From contig SHMT01000003.1 of the NCBI GenBank assembly GCA_004282745.1, positions 1-64,000 on the forward strand: a stretch of DNA of 64,000 nucleotides, in the 5' to 3' direction. Positions 7,098 through 36,235 of the stretch are shown one piece after another. The first letter of the stretch is position 1, and each line of letters begins with the position of its first letter. The DNA comes from Candidatus Scalindua sp. SCAELEC01 (GTDB lineage Bacteria > Planctomycetota > Brocadiia > Brocadiales > Scalinduaceae). The notes below the pieces were generated by a model. That model was not told the DNA's origin and ran no database searches. It worked only from the letters and a program-made list of their open reading frames with translations. The position numbers and the translations under genes are program-made.

Positions 7098-7381
7098 ACC
7101 GGTTGGTCAGGCCAAGCTTTGAACGGAAACCCCGTGGTTCAACCACTATCTACCTCCTCAATCACCAGGATTCGTTAGGTTGTGCTAACCCTCCTGGAGC
7201 TTTAGCCTTATATGTCCTTTCTGTCCGTCAACTCGCAAATTTGCGTTCCGTCTCCCTTCAGGCGATACCTCACGGCTTCGCCCTTGCCTTCGGCTCATGG
7301 TTGGCGTATAATGCCGCTATATCGTGATTCTCCCATAAGGGACTTTCACCCTATTAGTTCACATACATGCTGGGCGTACAC
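7098..7381 (-). mobile_element. Truncated group II intron (5' part, domain I)
   Basis: Read on the minus strand from 7381, it begins GTGTACGCCCAGC and continues with GTGAACT and AGGGTGAAAGTCCCT. It then has typical domain I loops (GCCGAAGGCAAGGGC, GGAGACGGAACGC, GTGGTTGAACCAC). These are the conserved opening of bacterial group II introns. No reverse transcriptase or domain V/VI follows: the sequence is cut at about 7098 next to the MITE end. The 5' splice point abuts the attC-like fold at 7382-7497 on the same (bottom) strand, the position used by attC-targeting group IIC introns. The class is not determined. Confidence 0.6.
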
Positions 7382-16167: not shown

Positions 16168-19100
16168 ATGCCCATACATGTAGCGATAAATCACATTACA
16201 ACATATACATATGACAGACGTATCAATCTTGGTTCGCAGATCATTCGATTAAGACCCGCTCCACATTCCCGCACACCGGTTCTCAGCTATTCGTTAAAGA
16301 TTACACCCCATAACCATTTCATTAATTGGCAACAGGATCCGCAGGGAAACTATCTTGCCAGAGTGGTATTCCCGGATAAGACGGATATTTTCCGCGTAGA
16401 AGTCGATTTGACGGCAGATATGACCATAATAAATCCTTTTGATTTTTTTCTTGAAGAGTATGCCAAAGACTATCCTTTTCGATATGAATTATGGTTGGAG
16501 AAAGAACTTAAACCTTTTTTGGAAAAGAAACGTCATCAAGAGGTATTTAATAACTACCTGAGAACGATTGAGACGAAAAAACAGGTTACCATTGATTTTT
16601 TAGTTGGCCTGAATCAACGGCTTCATAATGACATTAAATATCTTATTAGATTGGAACATGGCGTTCAAACTCCTGAAGAAACTTTGGAAAAGAGCTCCGG
16701 CTCCTGCCGTGATTCTGCCTGGCTTCTTGTTAATCTATTGCGTCATAAGGGTCTTGCAGCCCGGTTTGTTTCCGGTTATCTCATTCAATTAAAGGCCGAT
16801 GTGAAGTCTCTTGACGGCCCATCGGGGGCAGAAAAAGATTTCACTGATCTGCATGCCTGGACTGAGGTATATTTGCCGGGAGCAGGGTGGATTGGATTGG
16901 ATCCGACCTCTGGTCTTTTGACAGGAGAGGGTCATGTCCCCCTCGTGGCAACACCTGAACCGGCTTCCGCCTCACCAATTACCGGCTTGCTTGATAAGTG
17001 TAAAGTAGATTTTAATCATGAAATGGTAGTAACAAGAATCCACGAAGATCCACGTGTTACAAAGCCGTTTACAGACGAACAGTGGGATAGTATTCACTCG
17101 ATTGGATTGCAGGTTGACAGGGGACTGGAAAAAGAGGATGTCAGATTAACCATGGGTGGTGAGCCGACATTTGTTTCCATTGATGACATGGAAGGAGGAG
17201 AGTGGAATACGGAAGCCTTAGGTAAAAACAAACGGTGTTTATCTGAGATTTTATTCAAACGGTTGAAAAACCGGTGGACACACGGAGCTCTTATTTATTC
17301 GGGGCAGGGAAAATGGTATCCAGGCGAACAGTTGCCGCGATGGGTTTTAGGATGCTGCTGGCGTAAGGATGGAAAAGCAATCTGGAAAGATGAGCGGTTG
17401 ATTGCGGACGAAACAAAGGAATACTCTTTTTCCACTGAACACGCTAATCAATTTATCAAAACACTCGCTGTGCATATAGGGGTTGATCCCTCCTGTATTA
17501 TTCCCGGATACGAAGATGTCTGGTATTATATATGGAAAGAAAAACGGCTTCCCAAAAATGTCGATCCGTTGAAATCGAAGCTAAAAGACGTTTTGGAGAG
17601 AAATCGGCTAGCAAAGATCTTTGACAAAGAATTAGGAGAGATCGTTGGGTTCGCTCTGCCATTAACAAGTAAAGAATCAGAAAAAACAACAAACTGGATA
17701 AGTGGCAGATGGCAGTTCCGAGACCAATATATGTATCTTATTCCCGGTGATTCACCAATGGGATTACGCATGCCTTTAGATTCTTTACCGTGGATCAGCC
17801 CTGAAGATATACCACAGGTGTATGAACGTGACCCCCTTGCTCAGGTTGAAGATTTTATCGATATTGATAATCATACTTCTGGAAGAACGCAAGAGTTAAA
17901 GAAACAATGGCAGAAAAAAACTCCGCGTAAGGAGGAATCGGATGAAGAGGTTGTTCGTACGGCTCTTTGTGTTCAGGCGCGAAACGGAATAATTTACCTA
18001 TTCGTTCCCCCGCTCTCCACCATAGAAAACTATCTTGATCTAATCGATAAGGTAGAAAAAACAGCTAAAGAATTAAGTATTCCTGTCATCATCGAAGGTT
18101 ACGCTCCTCCATACGATTCACGCATTGATTCTTTTAAAATAACACCTGATCCCGGGGTTATCGAAGTCAATGTAGCCCCTACCAGTAATTGGAAGGAATT
18201 GGTTCAGCAAACAACCTCTCTCTATCAAGAGGCCCATTTTTCCAGACTAGGGACAGAGAAGTTCATGCTTGATGGGAGGCACTCTGGAACTGGCGGAGGA
18301 AACCATGTGGTTTTGGGAGGTCATACTCCCGCAGACAGTCCCTTCTTAAGAAGACCTGATTTGTTGGCAAGTTTAGTTTCCTATTGGCATAATCATCCGT
18401 CTTTGTCCTATTTGTTTTCCGGTTTATTCGTCGGGCCGACAAGCCAGGCTCCACGTGTCGATGAGGGTCGGAGAGATAGTGTGTATGAGCTTGAGATTGC
18501 TATTCAACAAGTTAAGTCTGAAATCAGCAAGTCCGGTCAATGCCTCCCGTGGATTGTTGACCGTTTGTTTCGCCATATCCTCGTTGATGGAACGGGAAAT
18601 ACGCACAGGGCGGAATTCTGTATTGATAAACTGTTTTCTCCTGATTCATCAACCGGTAGATTAGGCCTGGTTGAATTTCGCAGTTTTGAAATGCCGCCTC
18701 ACGCTCAGATGAGCATTGTTCAGCAGTTATTAATCAGGGCGTTAATTCTGAAGTTCTGGAATAATGACTACTCTACAAAACTGGTTCGTTGGAACACAAC
18801 ACTGCATGACAGGTTTTTATTACCGCATTTTGTTCGCGAAGATTTCCAGGATGTCTTATGTGACTTAAATGAAGTCGGCATTGAGCTTGAAATGGATTAT
18901 TTTGATCCTCATTTTGAATTTCGCTTTCCGGTTATCGGCAGAGTCAATTATAAGGGGATTGAACTGGAACTAAGAACGGCGATTGAGCCCTGGTATGTTC
19001 TTGGAGAAGAACCGGCCGGAGGAGGGACAACACGCTTTGTTGATTCTTCCGTAGAGCGACTGCAAGTTAAGGTAAAAGGTGCCACTGATAAACGTTACAA

Positions 19101-19467
19101 AGTGTGTTGTAACAGAAGAGCACTTCCACTGCACCCTACAGGTCCGCAGGGTGAATACGTTGCGGGTATAAGATATCGGGCATGGCAGCCGCCATCTTGT
19201 TTACATCCAACGGTTCCAGCTCATGCACCTTTAACATTTGATATCGTGGATACCTGGTCCATGCGGTCAATCGGCGGTTGTGTTTATCATGTCGCACATC
19301 CCGGTGGCCGAAACTATGAGACGTTTCCTGTAAACGCTTATGAGGCCGACGCCCGACGAGCGGCAAGATTTTTTAAAATAGGACATACTCCCGGAACATT
19401 AATGAGTCTGCCACAAGCAGAACAGAATCCTGATTTTCCGTTTACTTTGGATCTCAGAAGAGCATAA
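16168..19467 (+). CDS. Transglutaminase-like / DUF2126 fusion protein
   Basis: This 1099-residue cytoplasmic protein has an N-terminal bacterial transglutaminase-like domain. It starts 'IHVAINHITTYTYDRRI', with catalytic triad C180 (SGSCRDSAW), H229 (LHAWTEVYLPGAGW) and D245 (GLDPTSG). The remainder (about 300-1090) is DUF2126, with 'LTMGGEPTFVSIDDM', 'SGQGKWYPGEQLPRW', 'GTGGGNHVVLGG' and 'HAEFCIDKLF'-type motifs. The domain order and size match the two-domain proteins of this operon type. The triad looks complete, so peptidase or amide-transfer activity is plausible. It follows the alpha-E gene by 33 bp with GGAGGAA upstream. Confidence 0.92.
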   Translation: MPIHVAINHITTYTYDRRINLGSQIIRLRPAPHSRTPVLSYSLKITPHNHFINWQQDPQGNYLARVVFPDKTDIFRVEVDLTADMTIINPFDFFLEEYAKDYPFRYELWLEKELKPFLEKKRHQEVFNNYLRTIETKKQVTIDFLVGLNQRLHNDIKYLIRLEHGVQTPEETLEKSSGSCRDSAWLLVNLLRHKGLAARFVSGYLIQLKADVKSLDGPSGAEKDFTDLHAWTEVYLPGAGWIGLDPTSGLLTGEGHVPLVATPEPASASPITGLLDKCKVDFNHEMVVTRIHEDPRVTKPFTDEQWDSIHSIGLQVDRGLEKEDVRLTMGGEPTFVSIDDMEGGEWNTEALGKNKRCLSEILFKRLKNRWTHGALIYSGQGKWYPGEQLPRWVLGCCWRKDGKAIWKDERLIADETKEYSFSTEHANQFIKTLAVHIGVDPSCIIPGYEDVWYYIWKEKRLPKNVDPLKSKLKDVLERNRLAKIFDKELGEIVGFALPLTSKESEKTTNWISGRWQFRDQYMYLIPGDSPMGLRMPLDSLPWISPEDIPQVYERDPLAQVEDFIDIDNHTSGRTQELKKQWQKKTPRKEESDEEVVRTALCVQARNGIIYLFVPPLSTIENYLDLIDKVEKTAKELSIPVIIEGYAPPYDSRIDSFKITPDPGVIEVNVAPTSNWKELVQQTTSLYQEAHFSRLGTEKFMLDGRHSGTGGGNHVVLGGHTPADSPFLRRPDLLASLVSYWHNHPSLSYLFSGLFVGPTSQAPRVDEGRRDSVYELEIAIQQVKSEISKSGQCLPWIVDRLFRHILVDGTGNTHRAEFCIDKLFSPDSSTGRLGLVEFRSFEMPPHAQMSIVQQLLIRALILKFWNNDYSTKLVRWNTTLHDRFLLPHFVREDFQDVLCDLNEVGIELEMDYFDPHFEFRFPVIGRVNYKGIELELRTAIEPWYVLGEEPAGGGTTRFVDSSVERLQVKVKGATDKRYKVCCNRRALPLHPTGPQGEYVAGIRYRAWQPPSCLHPTVPAHAPLTFDIVDTWSMRSIGGCVYHVAHPGGRNYETFPVNAYEADARRAARFFKIGHTPGTLMSLPQAEQNPDFPFTLDLRRA

Positions 19468-19562
19468 CTTCTTACGTCAAAGTTTTAAGAAGCTCTTTGT
19501 AAAAAGCCTTCTACGCTGTGAACAGAAACATTCAACAGTCTGATTATTATCTTGAGGCTATT

Positions 19563-20639
19563 ATGAAAATCTATAACTGTAATGTTTGTGATGAATTAAT
19601 TTATTTTGAAAATACCCAGTGTCTGAACTGCGGTTCACTTCTGGGATATTTACCGGTTCTTGATACCATGAGTTCACTGGAGGCGATTGACGGGTCGCTC
19701 TGGAAGACCCTGACTCCGGAAGCCCGGGGGGATCTTTACAGGAAATGCCATAATTACAAAGAAGAAAATGTGTGCAATTGGATGATTCCCATGGATGACA
19801 TGAACGCTTTTTGTCTTTCGTGTCGCCTTGATGAGATAATTCCTGATTTAAGTATTTCAGAAAATCGCGAATATTGGCGGCGTCTTGAAGAAGCCAAACG
19901 TCGATTGGTCTACAGTTTGTTACGATTAGGCTTGCCACTGAGAAACAAACAGGAAGATCCTGAGAATGGCTTGGGTTTTGCTTTTTTGGCTGAGGACAAA
20001 AAGCCTCGAATAAAAGAATCCAGAAAAGTCATAACTGGACATGCGCAGGGTAAAATTACCATTAATATCTCCGAGGCAAATGATGCTATCAGAGAAAAAA
20101 TGAGATTAAATCTGAATGAACGATATCGGACTCTGTTGGGACATTTTCGACATGAGATCGGGCATTATTACTGGTTTTTATTTATAGGAAAAAATAGAGG
20201 ATTACTCTCCCAGTTTCGAGATGTATTTGGCAATGAACAGGAAAACTACAATCAAGCTTTGAAACACTACTATTCAGAGGGGGCATCTGCAGACTGGCAA
20301 CAGCAGTTTGTGAGTGCCTATGCCAGTTCCCATCCCTGGGAGGACTGGGCAGAAAGCTGGGCACATTATCTGCATATGTTTGACACGTTAGAAACAGCAC
20401 GTGCATGGGGATTGACGGTCAGATTTAAAAAAGGAAACGAACTGAGAGCCATACATCTTGAACACAATTTATTGTCTTTTGAAGAGATGCGAAATCAGTG
20501 GATATATTTAAGCTGTTCGTTAAACAGCCTCAATAGAAGCATGGGGATGAAAGATGTATATCCGTTTGTCTGGTCTGAGACGGCAATTGAGAAGTTACGC
20601 TTTATACAACAAGTTATTATTACGCTGAAAGAGAGGTGA
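19563..20639 (+). CDS. Zinc-ribbon metallopeptidase (Peptidase_Mx type)
   Basis: This 358-residue protein has an N-terminal zinc ribbon (C6, C9, C20, C23) followed by a second Cys cluster (C71, C84, C87). It has a metalloprotease site H197-E-I-G-H201, and a likely third ligand in 'WEDWAESWAHYLHM' about 90 residues on. This matches the putative zinc-binding metallopeptidases (PF15887-like) found in Anbu operons. I chose ATG 19563 because the zinc ribbon begins there; an upstream GTG at 19518 would only add an unconserved leader. It ends 4 bp before the Anbu gene, so the two proteases are almost surely co-expressed. Confidence 0.85.
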   Translation: MKIYNCNVCDELIYFENTQCLNCGSLLGYLPVLDTMSSLEAIDGSLWKTLTPEARGDLYRKCHNYKEENVCNWMIPMDDMNAFCLSCRLDEIIPDLSISENREYWRRLEEAKRRLVYSLLRLGLPLRNKQEDPENGLGFAFLAEDKKPRIKESRKVITGHAQGKITINISEANDAIREKMRLNLNERYRTLLGHFRHEIGHYYWFLFIGKNRGLLSQFRDVFGNEQENYNQALKHYYSEGASADWQQQFVSAYASSHPWEDWAESWAHYLHMFDTLETARAWGLTVRFKKGNELRAIHLEHNLLSFEEMRNQWIYLSCSLNSLNRSMGMKDVYPFVWSETAIEKLRFIQQVIITLKER

Positions 20640-20643
20640 GGCA

Positions 20644-21378
20644 ATGACGTTTTGTTCCATGATAAAAGTAAAGGAAGGGTTGATTGGTATTGCCGATACG
20701 AGGATTACCAGCGGTACGGAACTTACAACTGCTAAAAAGATTACTGTCAGACAGATATCAGGAAAAAAACATGCATTTTTCATTATGACGTCAGGATTAA
20801 GGTCAGTTCGGGATAAGGCTCTTACCTATTTTCAGGAGGTTATTGATGAACAGGATCTGGAGTTTAACAAGCTTTATAAAGTAGTCAATGCCTTTGCTGA
20901 ACAGGTAAGACGTGTGGAAAAGGAAGATGGTACTTCATTATTAAAAGGTGGACTAGTCTTTGATCTTTACTCCTTAGTAGCAGGACAGCTTGAGGATGAC
21001 GATGAGCATATGGTATTTATGCTTTACCCTCAAGGTAATTGGGTTGAGATGACAGAGAGCAGTCCGTACTTTATTATTGGAAGTAGCGGATATGGAAAGC
21101 CCATTCTGCAGCGTGTTCTTAAATACAACTCCCCAATAAGATTTGCGCTAAAGGCAGGTTTTCTTGCGTTTGACGCTACCAGGATTAGCTCCACGGATGT
21201 TGGATACCCCATTGATATTGTTATACAAAAGAAGGATGAGCATAAAATTATTGAGCATCGGTTTGAATATGACGATTTGCAAAAATATTCTAAGTGGTGG
21301 CAAAAAAAAATCTCCACCGGAATAAAAGACTTGCCTGAAGATTGGGTAAATACCGTTTTTTCAAAATTTAAGATGTAA
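20644..21378 (+). CDS. Anbu, proteasome-type protease
   Basis: This 244-residue Ntn-hydrolase of the ancestral beta-subunit (Anbu) family begins 'MTFCSMIKVKEGLIGIADTRITSGTE'. Removal of Met exposes Thr1, the nucleophile. Asp17 (in ADTR) and Lys at 30/31 fit the proteasome catalytic set. 'MTSGLRSVRDKALTYF' and 'GSSGYGKP' are further family blocks. Unlike proteasomes there is no alpha-subunit or ATPase nearby; Anbu assembles alone in studied cases. The strong ribosome binding site GAGAGGTGAGG overlaps the end of the metallopeptidase gene. As the last gene of the operon it probably acts on products or tagged targets of the ligase genes (inference). Confidence 0.92.
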   Translation: MTFCSMIKVKEGLIGIADTRITSGTELTTAKKITVRQISGKKHAFFIMTSGLRSVRDKALTYFQEVIDEQDLEFNKLYKVVNAFAEQVRRVEKEDGTSLLKGGLVFDLYSLVAGQLEDDDEHMVFMLYPQGNWVEMTESSPYFIIGSSGYGKPILQRVLKYNSPIRFALKAGFLAFDATRISSTDVGYPIDIVIQKKDEHKIIEHRFEYDDLQKYSKWWQKKISTGIKDLPEDWVNTVFSKFKM

Positions 21379-25509: not shown

Positions 25510-25667
25510 TGTAGACTTTACATTGATTACCCCTCACACTATATTCCTGCACTCTTTTACTTTACCGTTGCATAATAACAGCAAAAGGGTTCAGAACAAA
25601 ATGAAGATTTTTCATTGATAAATCATTAAGATTTGTTACAATTTCCTATGTGATTTCAATACAAATT

Positions 25668-25755
25668 AAAGGCAAACTCTGAGTGATCAGAGGACGCAAA
25701 GTATTGGGTCTTTGCTATTTCAAGGAAGTAGCACAAAGATAGCCTTACTGCCAAA
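25668..25755 (+). ncRNA. c-di-GMP-I (GEMM-I) riboswitch aptamer
   Basis: The sequence has the GEMM-I order: AAAGGCAAAC, then a P1b hairpin CTCTGA-GTGA-TCAGAG capped by a GNRA tetraloop, then GACGCAAAG. P2 follows with GGGTCTTTGC pairing to GCACAAAGAT, closing with GATAGCC. The base before CAAAC is G, as in c-di-GMP-binding aptamers rather than cGAMP-type ones (by knowledge of Vc2 G20). The 3' edge runs into the 5' arm of the terminator at 25741, so ligand binding could control transcript read-through. The next gene downstream is 26092. Confidence 0.85.
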
Positions 25756-25793
25756 CGAAATGAGATGACTACCTTGGCAGTAAGGCTTTTTTT
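25741..25793 (+). terminator. Rho-independent terminator, expression platform of riboswitch
   Basis: AGCCTTACTGCCAA pairs with TTGGCAGTAAGGCT (14 bp) around an 18-base loop and is followed by TTTTTTT. It overlaps the last bases of the aptamer. Confidence 0.9.
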
Positions 25794-25915
25794 GTCTCCT
25801 CAAGGTCTTTCATCCCCTTTTACTGTATGGAATCCCCGTCATAGAAAATTTTATCTAATCGGCATTTACTATTACAAGTTCTTTTAATTCAACTAGATGC
25901 ATTCTGCTGTTTTTT

Positions 25916-25930
25916 CGGCATACAATTTGC
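25916..25930 (+). promoter_or_regulatory. Candidate sigma-54 promoter
   Basis: CGGCATACAATTTGC has the GG-N10-GC spacing and GGCA/TTGC cores of -24/-12 promoters (one mismatch at the first T). It lies after the riboswitch terminator and 160 bp before the lipoprotein gene, so it may drive that operon independently. Confidence 0.4.
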
Positions 25931-26091
25931 GCTCTAGCTCTCCTGTTATAGTATTCACACTTAAATGACGGGTACTCTCTTAGGCGTTCTTTTTCTTTCT
26001 TTGGAAAAAAATTTTTTTCCTTATCAATTTATTTCCCTTTTTGAGTAAAATTACTTTATTTAAAAAATCGCTTACGCAATGAGGTGCCAGT

Positions 26092-26865
26092 GTGATTATT
26101 AAGCAAACATTACATATCTTTTCCCCTTTAACGTTTTTATTCGTTTTGCTGATGAATGGTTGCGCTATCATAGATAACATTAAAGGTGAATACCTTACCT
26201 CAAAAAAGGACCATAGTGGCAACAAAGATGAAGTCATTCTCAAAAGTACTACGAACAAGATAAGTGAAACGAATCAAAAAACTTTTCCTGCTAACAACAG
26301 TGAATTTTTACAAAAAAATGTGGATATTACCAAGGGAACAGCCATTCACCAAAACAGTATAGAAAAGAAAAATGAAGAGAAATGGTTATTAGATGAACTG
26401 AATGAGAAAAAAAATGTGCCGATCAAGATGGAGAGACAATTACCTGTGTATGGCTATGTTGAAAATGTACTCCTTGGCCCTGACAACTTAAAATTTAAGG
26501 CAAAGCTTGATTCAGGAGCAAAAACCTCTTCATTAAATGCGTTAGATATAGTAGAATTTGAACGTGATGGAGAGCAATGGGTTAGATTTAACATGATAGA
26601 TCCCTCAGTTGGTGAAAAAGTGGAGTTAGAGAGAAAACTTGAAAACCATGTAAAAATCAAACAACTTGGGTCTGAAAGTGAAAGACGACCTGTTATCATG
26701 ATGGAGGTACAATTGGGAACTATCCATATCGAACGCAAGTTTAGTCTAACGGAGAGAAATAATTTTATCTACCAAGTGCTATTAGGCCGTAATTTCCTGA
26801 ATGGAGTTGCCCTCATAGATGTTTCTCGAACATTTGTGGCAAATACTAGTTCAGATCAAGAGTAA
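26092..26865 (+). CDS. Lipoprotein with retropepsin-like DUF785 domain
   Basis: This 257-residue protein starts at GTG 26092 after GAGGTG. Residues 1-23 are a lipoprotein signal, with C24 in 'LLMNGCAI'. A charged linker follows (about 30-115), then a DUF785-type domain with 'KLDSGAKTSSLNA', where D140 is the retropepsin-like Asp, 'WVRFNM', 'RRPVIMMEVQLG' and 'VLLGRNFL'. Despite the old name 'ATP-dependent zinc protease', the fold is an aspartic-protease-like one. It overlaps the next start (TAATG). In related clusters this domain goes with 7TM-transglutaminase and RimK-like ligases, as here. It likely acts in the periplasm. Confidence 0.85.
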   Translation: MIIKQTLHIFSPLTFLFVLLMNGCAIIDNIKGEYLTSKKDHSGNKDEVILKSTTNKISETNQKTFPANNSEFLQKNVDITKGTAIHQNSIEKKNEEKWLLDELNEKKNVPIKMERQLPVYGYVENVLLGPDNLKFKAKLDSGAKTSSLNALDIVEFERDGEQWVRFNMIDPSVGEKVELERKLENHVKIKQLGSESERRPVIMMEVQLGTIHIERKFSLTERNNFIYQVLLGRNFLNGVALIDVSRTFVANTSSDQE

Positions 26866-28394
26866 TGAATTCTAAAATACAGTTTTATATCATAATTTTT
26901 TTTCTGGCTCTGATAGGATTAGGACTCACTTTTTATAAATCCATTTTCTTTGGATTTCCCTTGCTCCCAGGACAGCATGAAGAAGTTTGGATTGTTGAGG
27001 CAAAAATAACATTTACGGCTAAAGGCGGTCCTGTAAAGGCTTCCTTCCTTATACCTTCAGCAGCACCGGGCTACGCTATTCAGAGTGAAGATTTTGCATC
27101 AACCAATTATGGCTTCAACAAAACAAAAGATGAATATGGCTATCGAGCAAATTGGCATGCTCGGGATTTGCAAGGGATTCAAACCCTTTACTATCGCGTT
27201 CAATTCTTCGGTTCCATCCGGTTGGACTCCACTCTCTTGGAAGAAGAACCAAAATTAGATCCCCTCCCATTCTTTGCGGAACCCTATCAAATAGCTGTCG
27301 ACACATTGATAGAACAGACACGAAACAATTCTGCAGATACCGCAACATTTACCGTAGAGTTACTTAAGAGTTTGAATTCTCCTTCTCGCTCACAGAATGT
27401 TAATCTGCTTTTGAGAGAACACAATACTATCGAATCCAAAACTGAGTTATTTCTCAAACTTCTCACACGCGCAAAAATTCCTGCCAGGATTGTAAGAGGA
27501 CTATTTCTTAAGGACGGCATTCGGAATAAACCGCTCTCCGAGTTGATACAGGTATATGATGGTTCACAGTGGGTTTTCTTTAATCCCCTCACCGGGAACA
27601 GCGGCTTACCGAAAGATTTTTTTATTTGGCAGAAAGGGGGAAAATCACTGTTTGATCTAATTGGGGGAGAAGATTCAAATGTCACTTTCTCGATCACCAG
27701 GGATCTTCGCACCTCTCAGGAATTGGCTACCTATAGAGCAAATTCCAGAGATGCCAAATTCATTGATTTTTCAATATATAGCCTACCCATTGATAAGCAA
27801 AATGCCCTTACCCTGCTACTCCTAGTACCGATAGGAGCACTCGTAGTGGTTATTATGAACAACCTCGTTGGAATTCCCACTTCCGGTACCTTTATGCCCA
27901 TATTAATAGCAATGTCTTTTAAACAGACAGAACTCATCCCGGGTCTTTGTATGTTTTGTATCATCATTGGTGCAGGTCTACAAATCCGGTCTTACCTATC
28001 ACACCTAAACCTGCTCTTTGTCCCTAGGATTTCAGCCGTGGTAATTGTTGTCATTTTACTCATGTCGTGCATGAGTGTCTTCAGTTTCAAGCTCGGCATT
28101 CAACATGGACTTGGTATTACTTTCTTCCCAATGATCATCCTCGCATGGACAATTGAACGGCTATCTATCATCTGGGAAGAGCAAGGGCATAAGGAGGCAC
28201 TGACTCAAGGAGGAGGTAGTTTATTGGTTGCCTGCATTGCCTTTTTGGTAATGGACAATAGCATTATTGAACACCTTACTTTCACCTTCCCTGAATTAAT
28301 TCTGGTGAATCTCGCAACAATCTTATTAATTGGCAATTACACTGGATACCGGCTCTCTGAATTACGCCGATTTAAAGCAATGATTAAGGACTAA
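26865..28394 (+). CDS. Inactive transglutaminase fused to seven-TM domain
   Basis: This 509-residue membrane protein has one N-terminal span (about 6-24) and a periplasmic transglutaminase-like domain (about 40-300). Seven or so spans follow from about residue 308 to 495. In the transglutaminase core, 'TELFLKLLTRAKIPARIVRGL' has no Cys where the nucleophile should be, and 'ELIQVYDGSQWVFFNP' has no His, so it is catalytically dead, as known for this family (UUP1/7TM pair). It is translationally coupled to the upstream lipoprotein gene. It probably binds the product of the downstream ligase or signals across the membrane (inference). Confidence 0.85.
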   Translation: MNSKIQFYIIIFFLALIGLGLTFYKSIFFGFPLLPGQHEEVWIVEAKITFTAKGGPVKASFLIPSAAPGYAIQSEDFASTNYGFNKTKDEYGYRANWHARDLQGIQTLYYRVQFFGSIRLDSTLLEEEPKLDPLPFFAEPYQIAVDTLIEQTRNNSADTATFTVELLKSLNSPSRSQNVNLLLREHNTIESKTELFLKLLTRAKIPARIVRGLFLKDGIRNKPLSELIQVYDGSQWVFFNPLTGNSGLPKDFFIWQKGGKSLFDLIGGEDSNVTFSITRDLRTSQELATYRANSRDAKFIDFSIYSLPIDKQNALTLLLLVPIGALVVVIMNNLVGIPTSGTFMPILIAMSFKQTELIPGLCMFCIIIGAGLQIRSYLSHLNLLFVPRISAVVIVVILLMSCMSVFSFKLGIQHGLGITFFPMIILAWTIERLSIIWEEQGHKEALTQGGGSLLVACIAFLVMDNSIIEHLTFTFPELILVNLATILLIGNYTGYRLSELRRFKAMIKD

Positions 28395-28398
28395 CGAT

Positions 28399-29355
28399 AT
28401 GATTTTTGCTAACCCTGCCAAACTCTCAAAGCGCGGTGTCCTGGGGATGAATATGCGCAATCTGGATTTTGTCCTTGCGTATAATCCAAGACATCTTTTT
28501 CCCCAGGTGGACAACAAGTTAATAACAAAACGTCTCGCTGAAAAGGCAGGAATTCCCGTTCCAAAGCTTTATGAGACCATTCAGTTTCAACACCAAATAC
28601 AGCTTTTACCAAAACTATTAGAGAATTATGAGCAGTTTGTCGTTAAGCCTTCGAAGGGGAGCGGTGGAAAGGGTATTCTTGTCGTTTTGGGTAAGCAAAG
28701 TGGCCACTTCATAAAAACAAATGGATCTATGGTCTCACAGAAAGATCTCAATCGTCACGTTTCAAATATTGTCAGCGGTCTCTACAGTCTTGGTGGACAC
28801 ATCGACACTGCTATGATAGAATACTATGTTAATTTTTCTCCTATTTTTAAGGATATTAGTTATCAGGGAGTTCCCGACATCAGGGTTCTCGTCTTCCAAG
28901 GGTATCCGACAATGGCAATGTTACGGTTGCCAACCAGGACATCTGACGGAAAGGCAAATCTCCATCAAGGGGCCGTTGGTGTTGGGATAGATATCCAAAG
29001 AGGTACCACCTTACGTGGGGTATATCGTAACAACCCTATTGAAAATCATCCCGATACCGGTAAATCTTTCAAAGATATACCGATTCCCGGTTGGCATGAC
29101 CTGCTTATTCTTGCATCCCGATGTTATGAGATCACGGGGCTTGGTTATATGGGAATAGATATCGTTCTGGATAGTAATCATGGCCCAATGATTCTTGAAA
29201 TGAATGCAAGACCTGGACTTGCGATACAGGTAGCCAATAATTCGGGTTTAGTACCTCGCTTACGCAAGATTGAGAAGATGGCATCGAAAAAACTTACCAT
29301 TGAACAACGTGTCTCTTTTGCAGAAAAAAATTTTAGTGCCAACTTCTTAAAATGA
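28399..29355 (+). CDS. RimK-like alpha-L-glutamate ligase homologue (ATP-grasp)
   Basis: This 318-residue ATP-grasp enzyme has 'GVLGMNMRNLDFVLAYNPR', 'KRLAEKAGIPVPKLY', 'FVVKPSKGSGGKGILVV' (ATP-binding loop), 'QGVPDIRVLVF' and 'GIDIVLD..GPMILEMNARPG' (Mg-binding E-x-N). These match the RimK-like ligases of the 7TM-transglutaminase operons. It should join an amino acid, probably glutamate, to an amine by an acyl-phosphate step. It begins 4 bp after the 7TM gene. The actual acceptor is unknown. Confidence 0.88.
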   Translation: MIFANPAKLSKRGVLGMNMRNLDFVLAYNPRHLFPQVDNKLITKRLAEKAGIPVPKLYETIQFQHQIQLLPKLLENYEQFVVKPSKGSGGKGILVVLGKQSGHFIKTNGSMVSQKDLNRHVSNIVSGLYSLGGHIDTAMIEYYVNFSPIFKDISYQGVPDIRVLVFQGYPTMAMLRLPTRTSDGKANLHQGAVGVGIDIQRGTTLRGVYRNNPIENHPDTGKSFKDIPIPGWHDLLILASRCYEITGLGYMGIDIVLDSNHGPMILEMNARPGLAIQVANNSGLVPRLRKIEKMASKKLTIEQRVSFAEKNFSANFLK

Positions 29356-29388
29356 TTTTAACCAAAAACAGAAAGGATGAGAGGTGAA

Positions 29389-30135
29389 ATGATAACACGA
29401 TCAGCAAATCCGGCTTTAAACAAAGATACATTTTCACAGGTAAGACATCTTACAAGTTCTCATAATTTAATGACACTTCAAGGAACCGTAAACAAGACGG
29501 CAATCTTAATAGGTCTCGCCTTCCTGTCTGCATTCTGGGTGTGGCGTCAATTTTTTATGTATGAAATGCCTCAAATTTCTTTATACATAATGGTAGGAGC
29601 TATTGGAGGTCTCATTACTGCAATGGTAGCTATCTTTAAACCAACGACTTCGCCTTTTGTCGCTCCTATTTACGCTTTATTGCAAGGTCTATTTCTCGGC
29701 GGGATCTCTTCTCTAATGGAAGCCCGCTTTCCCGGCATTGTAATTCAATCAGTTGGACTTACTTTTGGAACTCTTTTTGCCCTTTTGTTTGCCTATAAAT
29801 CCGGATTGATAAAGGCCACAGAAAATTTTAAACTTGGAGTCGCTGCTGCAACCGGTGGTATCTTCTTGATGTACATGGTAAATATTATCCTCGGTTTTTT
29901 TGGTGCATCCATTCCCTTTATTCATGATACTGGCTTTTTCGGGATCGGCATTAGCGCTTTTATCGTGATCATTGCGGCGCTTAATCTCGTCCTTGATTTC
30001 GACTTTATCGAACACGGTGTTGAGCAGGGAGCTCCGAAGTTCATGGAGTGGAGAGCGGCTTTGGGACTCATGATTACGCTTGTATGGCTCTACATTGAGA
30101 TCCTTCACCTCATCTCAAAATTGAGGAGTCGCTAA
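29389..30135 (+). CDS. Bax inhibitor-1 family membrane protein
   Basis: This 248-residue inner-membrane protein has seven hydrophobic spans. 'MITRSANPALNKDTF' is the usual N-terminus of the bacterial YccA/BI-1-like group. 'GIGISAFIVIIAALNLVLDFDFIEHG' carries the conserved acidic pair of the channel. I prefer ATG 29389 over 29377 because GAGAGGTGA sits just upstream of it. These proteins are linked to calcium leak and to modulation of the FtsH protease. It follows the RimK-like gene by 33 bp and may be part of the same transcript. Confidence 0.9.
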   Translation: MITRSANPALNKDTFSQVRHLTSSHNLMTLQGTVNKTAILIGLAFLSAFWVWRQFFMYEMPQISLYIMVGAIGGLITAMVAIFKPTTSPFVAPIYALLQGLFLGGISSLMEARFPGIVIQSVGLTFGTLFALLFAYKSGLIKATENFKLGVAAATGGIFLMYMVNIILGFFGASIPFIHDTGFFGIGISAFIVIIAALNLVLDFDFIEHGVEQGAPKFMEWRAALGLMITLVWLYIEILHLISKLRSR

Positions 30136-30962: not shown

Positions 30963-31163
30963 TTATACTTTAACGACATTTGAAGCCTTGAAACCTTTTT
31001 GGTCTTTCGTTATTTCAAACTCTACGCTATCTCCTTCTGACAGAGATTTAAAACCTTCGCCCTCAATTGCAGTATGGTGTACGAAGACATCATCCCCATT
31101 CTCCTGTGAAATAAATCCAAAGCCCTTTGAATCGTTAAACCACTTTACTGTTCCACTTGTCAT
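30963..31163 (-). CDS. csp: Cold-shock protein, CspA family (tandem copy 1)
   Basis: This 66-residue, single-domain OB-fold RNA chaperone has the RNA-binding motifs RNP1 'KGFGFI' and RNP2 'VFVHH'. It starts [11 protein letters not shown] at ATG 31163 after the AAGAGAGGG-type ribosome binding site. It is almost identical to the two genes upstream (31302 and 31614) and lies last in the array, before a strong terminator. Its product melts RNA secondary structure, typically after temperature drop. Confidence 0.95.
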
Positions 31164-31301
31164 ACTAATGAACCACCCTCTCTTAATAGAAAAAAAACTA
31201 AAAACAAAAACATGTTCTCCCACCTACTCTATATTTTTAGACACAAACCTCTTTCGATAACATCATACAGTTAAACAATACGAGTATGCTTTGTTACATT
31301 T

Positions 31302-31502
31302 TTATACTTTAACAACGTTTGAAGCCTTGAAACCTTTTTGGTCTTTCGTTATTTCAAACTCTACGCTATCTCCCTCTGACAGAGATTTAAAACCTTCTCC
31401 CTCAATTGCGGTATGGTGTACGAAGACATCGTCCCCATTCTCCTGTGAAATAAATCCAAAGCCCTTTGAGTCGTTAAACCACTTTACTGTTCCACTTGCC
31501 AT
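31302..31502 (-). CDS. csp: Cold-shock protein, CspA family (tandem copy 2)
   Basis: This 66-residue protein differs from copy 1 at residue 2 (Ala for Thr) and hardly elsewhere. RNP1 and RNP2 motifs are intact. A longer frame to 31529 is open, but MASGTVKWF at 31502 is the family start. The downstream 40-bp tail (AAACAATACGAGTATGCTTTG) is shared with copy 1, so the duplicated unit includes flanking DNA. Confidence 0.95.
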
Positions 31503-31613
31503 GCTTGAAACCCCCCTCTTAATAGACAAAACAAAAATATATCGTTACCAATTTACTCTCTTACGATACCCTTGTACCGTTAAACAATATGAGCGAGTAA
31601 TGCTTGGTATCTT

Positions 31614-31814
31614 TTACACCTTAACAACATTTGAAGCCTTAAAACCTTTTTGGTCTTTTATGATTTCAAACTCTACTTTATCTCCTTCTGATAGAGATTT
31701 GAAACCTTCCCCCTCAATTGCGGTATGGTGTACGAAGACATCATCTCCGTTCTCCTGCGAAATAAACCCAAAACCCTTTGAGTCGTTAAACCACTTTACT
31801 GTTCCGCTTGTCAT
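31614..31814 (-). CDS. csp: Cold-shock protein, CspA family (tandem copy 3)
   Basis: This is the first gene of the three-gene array. Its 66 residues have K for S in '[11 protein letters not shown]', otherwise matching its neighbours. It is preceded by a 'GGGAGGGGG'-type ribosome binding site and lies about 170 bp from the recD2 end. The divergence of its downstream flank is greater than between copies 1 and 2, suggesting it split off earlier. Confidence 0.95.
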
Positions 31815-31856
31815 GCTAAAAAATCACCCCCTCCCAATGGATAAAAAGTAAACACG

Positions 31857-35835: not shown

Positions 35836-36036
35836 TTATAATTTGACAACATTTGAGGCCTTATAACCCCTTTCACCCTTTTCCGTTTCGAACTCAACTT
35901 TATCTCCTTCAGAGAGGCTTTTAAACCCCTCACCCTGAATTGCGGTATGGTGCACAAAGACATCATCCCCATTCTCCTGTGAAATAAAGCCAAAACCCTT
36001 TGAATCATTAAACCACTTTACAGTTCCACTTGCCAT
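35836..36036 (-). CDS. csp: Cold-shock protein, CspA family (fourth copy)
   Basis: This 66-residue protein starts at ATG 36036 after a GGGGGGATC-type ribosome binding site. RNP1 'KGFGFI' and RNP2 'VFVHH' are intact. It differs from the tandem trio mainly in the last third ('[19 protein letters not shown]'). It has its own terminator. It is divergent from the 180-bp-repeat gene at 36283, and the shared 246-bp spacer may hold control sites for both. Confidence 0.95.
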
Positions 36037-36206
36037 GCTGAGATCCCCCCAAAAAAGAAAATATGAAAAAAAGTTAGAGAGCGTAAAGCTTTTTGCAAAA
36101 ACGACATATATAGATTTACACCCTATACCGGAAAAACTGAAAGATAGTATCAAACATTGCTGATGAAAACAAGATAAATTTTTCAGTTTTAGGTTATTAT
36201 TTTTTA

Positions 36207-36235
36207 TTGACAATGGTAGTTGATTCTCGTATAAG
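36207..36235 (+). promoter_or_regulatory. Near-consensus sigma-70 promoter
   Basis: TTGACA (36207-36212), a 17-base spacer and TATAAG (36230-36235) precede the repeat-protein gene by 48 bp. The match is nearly perfect, predicting strong housekeeping expression. Confidence 0.8.

Follow-up and report, generated by a model that had tools for sequence, protein, structure and literature searches.

The rlo operon of Candidatus Scalindua

The window, a 64,000-nucleotide stretch of DNA from Candidatus Scalindua sp. SCAELEC01, carries three adjacent forward-strand genes (26092-29355) that the initial annotation had named by eye as a retropepsin, an inactive transglutaminase with seven transmembrane helices and a RimK-like ligase. 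Pfam agrees with these families. The first gene (26092-26865, + strand) encodes an rloA-like retropepsin-like aspartic peptidase (PF05618, 125.7 bits). Its catalytic-type DSGA motif aligns with the DTGA of solved relatives, and its relatives in the PDB are 9g58 and 2pma. The protein is judged by eye to be exported and is a probable lipoprotein; its N-terminal hydrophobic segment ends in MNGC (LNGC in Candidatus Scalindua sp. RBC_AMX3). The second gene (26865-28394, + strand) encodes an rloB-like inactive transglutaminase with seven transmembrane helices (PF14400, 161 bits; PF14402, 352 bits), and the third (28399-29355, + strand) an rloC-like ATP-grasp protein, RimK-related and alpha-L-glutamate ligase-like (PF14397, 303 bits). 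A gene for a Bax-inhibitor-1-like membrane protein (29377-30135, + strand; PF12811, 254 bits) begins 21 nt after rloC and is probably co-transcribed with it. As this gene follows rloC in both Scalindua species, it may be a fourth member of the rlo operon.

The description of this system as uncharacterised is outdated, since the operon is of the rloABC kind reported in 2025 from Pseudomonas aeruginosa (PMC12239564). In that species, growth at low osmolarity, biofilm formation and cell shape all depend on exported RloA peptidases, and deletion of rloB or rloC relieves, fully or partly, the defects caused by loss of RloA (PMC12239564). All three families (exported retropepsin-like, transglutaminase-7TM and ATP-grasp) are common to both organisms, whereas the Bax-inhibitor-like gene is attached in Scalindua, and Scalindua RloA and RloB stay under the NCBIfam cut-offs. 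The best model for the rloA-like protein is RloA3 (129 bits, cut-off 210), and the rloB-like protein matches the RloB model over its full length (403 bits, cut-off 900); the rloC-like protein passes TIGR02291 (436.6 bits, cut-off 314). Because the RloA and RloB models were matched below cut-off, we call the genes of the window rloABC homologues and do not count them among the orthologue groups that NCBI has defined for the Pseudomonas proteins.

The term c-di-GMP does not occur in the rloABC paper (PMC12239564). Full-text search revealed no other paper on the rlo operon; two of the gene names also turn up in a Campylobacter paper, one time each. A related retropepsin and ATP-grasp ligase also occur together in rimABK of Pseudomonas fluorescens (PMC4741518), where RimK is stimulated by c-di-GMP in vitro. 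Unlike Scalindua rlo, however, that system has a cytoplasmic peptidase and a ribosomal target, and c-di-GMP works there at the level of the protein, not of a riboswitch, with the phosphodiesterase RimA hydrolysing it (PMC4741518).

Elsewhere in the window, a separate transglutaminase-amidoligase (DUF2126) gene stands before one for a zinc metallopeptidase-like protein and one for a protein of 244 amino acids (16168-21378), the last of which had no Pfam match. A group II intron RNA (RF02001, 62 bits) lies on the reverse strand at 7122-7279. Near-identical genes for cold-shock-type proteins are present in several copies, also on the reverse strand (30963-31223 and 35836-36213), and mirrored open reading frames at 31291-31851 suggest further tandem copies.

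A c-di-GMP-I riboswitch upstream of rlo

The GEMM-I aptamer proposed by the initial annotation ahead of rlo was confirmed by an Infernal search (Rfam 15), in which 25661-25755 (+ strand) matched the c-di-GMP-I riboswitch family RF01051 over the full model (positions 1-87) with 60.7 bits (E 2e-9; gathering cut-off 35 bits). The conserved core (GGCAAAC and GACGCAAAG) and the GNRA loop are present. In these respects the element is an ordinary member of its class, while in the literature searched its target operon is unreported.

The specificity position is a G, within AAAGGCAAAC, which we take to be equivalent to G20 in the numbering of the Vibrio Vc2 aptamer; c-di-GMP is the ligand predicted from it. 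Known cGAMP synthases have Ser in the GGDEF motif. The Scalindua genome encodes 10 GGDEF domains, and in the nine with a readable GGDEF/GGEEF motif the residue is D or E, never Ser. Some GEMM-I members do sense cGAMP, among them the pilM switch, whose layout is shared here (PMC9262584). However, cGAMP binding has been tied to the change G20A (PMC6274999). With G at the specificity position and Ser absent from all GGDEF motifs read, it is highly improbable that 3',3'-cGAMP rather than c-di-GMP is the ligand at this locus.

The aptamer is followed by an intrinsic terminator (25741-25793, + strand), as the initial annotation had also claimed. Its 14-bp stem is formed by AGCCUUACUGCCAA (25741-25754) and UUGGCAGUAAGGCU (25774-25787) and leads into a T-run at 25787-25793. 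Folding of the transcript 25650-25800 yields the terminator at -52.3 kcal/mol (z -5.15 against shuffled sequences). An automatic scan limited to loops of 8 nt did not see it because its loop is 19 nt.

The 5' arm of the terminator (25741-25754) is also the 3' strand of the aptamer, so that 14 nt are common to both. Since one strand serves both structures, aptamer and terminator are mutually exclusive, and folding predicts that without ligand the terminator would win. The pilM riboswitch of Geobacter metallireducens, an experimentally studied cGAMP ON-switch, likewise has a mutually exclusive terminator and aptamer (PMC9262584). In both elements the terminator reuses the 3' strand of the aptamer, though here the specificity position is a G, so that c-di-GMP is expected, and the gene is a different one. 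By analogy to pilM, this layout suggests ON polarity, and the element is most likely a transcriptional ON-switch in which c-di-GMP permits transcription.

Most sibling riboswitches of Scalindua and its relatives have a terminator built in this way. At least 8 of 12 arm pairs were found in 22 riboswitches, 18 of them distinct. Among the 18 distinct arm pairs, both-sided changes occur at four pairs, and the pairing was matched or beaten by 1 of 5000 shuffles, a comparison that ignores kinship. A second type of sibling riboswitch is without a terminator and has the start codon approximately 60 nt downstream.

Probable promoter and leader of the rlo transcript

Scanning placed a probable sigma-70 promoter for the RNA that carries the riboswitch at 25615-25642 (+ strand; TTGATA-16-TACAAT, with TGT before the -10 box). 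In RBC_AMX3 the promoter at the same position is TTGATA-16-TATAAT (11/12 matches, same spacing). The rest of the 5' leader, from the T-run to the start codon of rloA (25794-26091, + strand), is 298 nt, which fits the earlier estimate of about 300 bp between terminator and gene. This distance had been called long, but it is not unusual. The first gene begins 337 nt past the aptamer at the rlo locus and 58 to 753 nt past it at the sibling riboswitches of this genome. Measured to the next sizeable gene, and including two weak hits on contig C88, the sibling distances are 120, 184, 231, 300, 366, 505 and 753 nt. Given these similar distances the 337 nt are ordinary, and the length of the leader is also kept in RBC_AMX3.

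A leader of this size is nevertheless roomy enough for a second promoter, which counts against reading the element as the ON-switch of rlo. The main rival explanation is that rlo is driven chiefly by a promoter of its own in the 298-nt gap, c-di-GMP being additive or irrelevant. Besides the length of the gap, this would fit a weak sigma-54-like motif, GGCATACAATTTGC (GG-N10-GC; 25917-25930), whose aligned counterpart in RBC_AMX3 reads GG-N10-GT, and a sigma-54 activator encoded in the genome, itself behind a riboswitch. However, the motif scores only 8/12, and 46 sites with GG and GC at these places are at least as good in the 64-kb window (both strands). Its -12 GC is lost in RBC_AMX3, the two Scalindua species share no sigma-70-like site there, and the sibling riboswitches have similar gaps. 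The sigma-54-like motif is too weak to be claimed as a second promoter, and we consider an operon driven mainly from its own promoter unlikely.

Other contents of the gap were considered and rejected. It holds no open reading frame common to both species, nothing else in the genome matches it convincingly enough to mark it as a repeat, and it has no Rfam match. No further short-loop GC-rich terminator was detected in it on the + strand (automatic scan, loop limit 8).

Conservation and distribution of the riboswitch-rlo pairing

The closest named relatives are Candidatus Scalindua sp. RBC_AMX3 (81% identity in RloB) and Ca. Anammoxibacter (67%), placing the genome with the anammox bacteria of the order Brocadiales and in one genus with RBC_AMX3. 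In RBC_AMX3 the locus has the same order: an Lcl_C gene, promoter, riboswitch, terminator, spacer, rloA-rloB-rloC and the Bax-inhibitor-like gene. Its riboswitch (contig L050, 1204-1299) scores 60.5 bits and is followed by rloA at 1623, 324 nt on. Between the two species the aptamer (25666-25755) is 91% identical and the 3' arm of the terminator 89%, whereas identity is 28% in the terminator loop, 48 to 68% in the spacer and 41% in the upstream intergenic DNA. The proteins are 53% (RloA) and 81% (RloB) identical. In RBC_AMX3 each of the 12 scored terminator pairs can still form, three of them as G-U, and in the aptamer stem P2 a double change puts C-G in the place of U-A. As aptamer and terminator are retained while their surroundings have diverged, this sequence pattern argues that both are under selection at the rlo locus.

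The element could instead be a stand-alone short RNA that responds to c-di-GMP, or have served a gene since lost, without controlling rlo. A terminated RNA of approximately 145 nt would be expected without ligand, and no open reading frame directly follows the terminator. Yet two species agree in the position relative to rloA and in the length of the leader amid diverged surroundings, the gap is without a conserved open reading frame, and the sibling elements precede co-directional genes, making an element unconnected to rlo very unlikely. The proposal in the initial annotation that the riboswitch controls the operon can be upheld as the most likely arrangement, and its doubt over the 300-bp gap is answered, because gene order is conserved in RBC_AMX3 and such leader lengths are usual for the genome; the ON polarity is by analogy to pilM.

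Only two of the genomes examined carry the riboswitch-rlo pairing. No GEMM-I element precedes rlo in Anammoxibacter, in four Brocadiaceae genomes (five loci) or in Nitrosomonas nitrosa, and none occurs at four further Planctomycetota PF14402 loci, giving 0 of 10 loci for the other Planctomycetota. In a sample of 229 Gammaproteobacteria, 46 had PF14402 over the cut-off and 40 had GEMM-I, but in no genome were the two on the same contig (stricter filters; uncorrected for contig breaks). Since it was not found at these loci or in these genomes, the pairing appears to be a lineage-specific wiring and not a general property of rlo.

Two observations concern the relatives. Anammoxibacter has two rloA-like genes before rloB (L051, 7313-7888 and 8557-9171), without a riboswitch. 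Several Brocadiaceae genomes hold very many c-di-GMP-I riboswitches, 18 to 56 each.

Sibling riboswitches and a probable c-di-GMP regulon

Behind the sibling riboswitches in Scalindua lie, among others, genes for surface proteins (with Ig-like, PKD or collagen-like repeats), for a polysaccharide protein resembling Wzz/Wzc, for a GGDEF-EAL response regulator and for a sigma-54 activator. Such a set is typical of sessile life. One sibling precedes a receiver-GGDEF-EAL gene (L060, 5631-7627), and c-di-GMP may here feed back on its own metabolism. In RBC_AMX3, two riboswitches (L096 and L097) each stand before a very large gene; the two genes are similar to one another and, judged by eye, resemble those for SpvB/Rhs-type proteins.

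Taken with its leader and its conservation, the element probably acts in cis as a c-di-GMP-dependent transcriptional ON-switch of the rlo operon. Transcription would start approximately 10 nt before the aptamer. Binding of c-di-GMP to the nascent aptamer would hold strand 25741-25754 and so block the terminator, letting the polymerase read on through the leader of 300 nt and then through rloA-rloB-rloC and the Bax-inhibitor-like gene. In the absence of the ligand, 25741-25754 would pair with 25774-25787 and transcription would stop at approximately 25793. High c-di-GMP, as in the sessile state, would then raise not only the Rlo envelope system but also the functions encoded behind sibling riboswitches, namely surface proteins, polysaccharide export and a GGDEF-EAL enzyme.

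To our knowledge, no regulation of rlo has been described beyond the gammaproteobacteria. The type of riboswitch is already known; the novelty lies in linking c-di-GMP to rlo, a pairing not found in the literature searched. The switch would tie rlo, with its known biofilm phenotypes, to the main signal of sessile life, and it offers a simple reporter that can be tested. Anammox bacteria grow as aggregates and their genetics are difficult. The switch also maps a part of their c-di-GMP regulon, and on balance it seems that Scalindua rlo belongs, under direct control by an RNA switch, to a biofilm regulon with surface proteins, exopolysaccharide export and a GGDEF-EAL enzyme. If so, this would suggest that anammox bacteria use the Rlo system to remodel their envelope for a sessile life.
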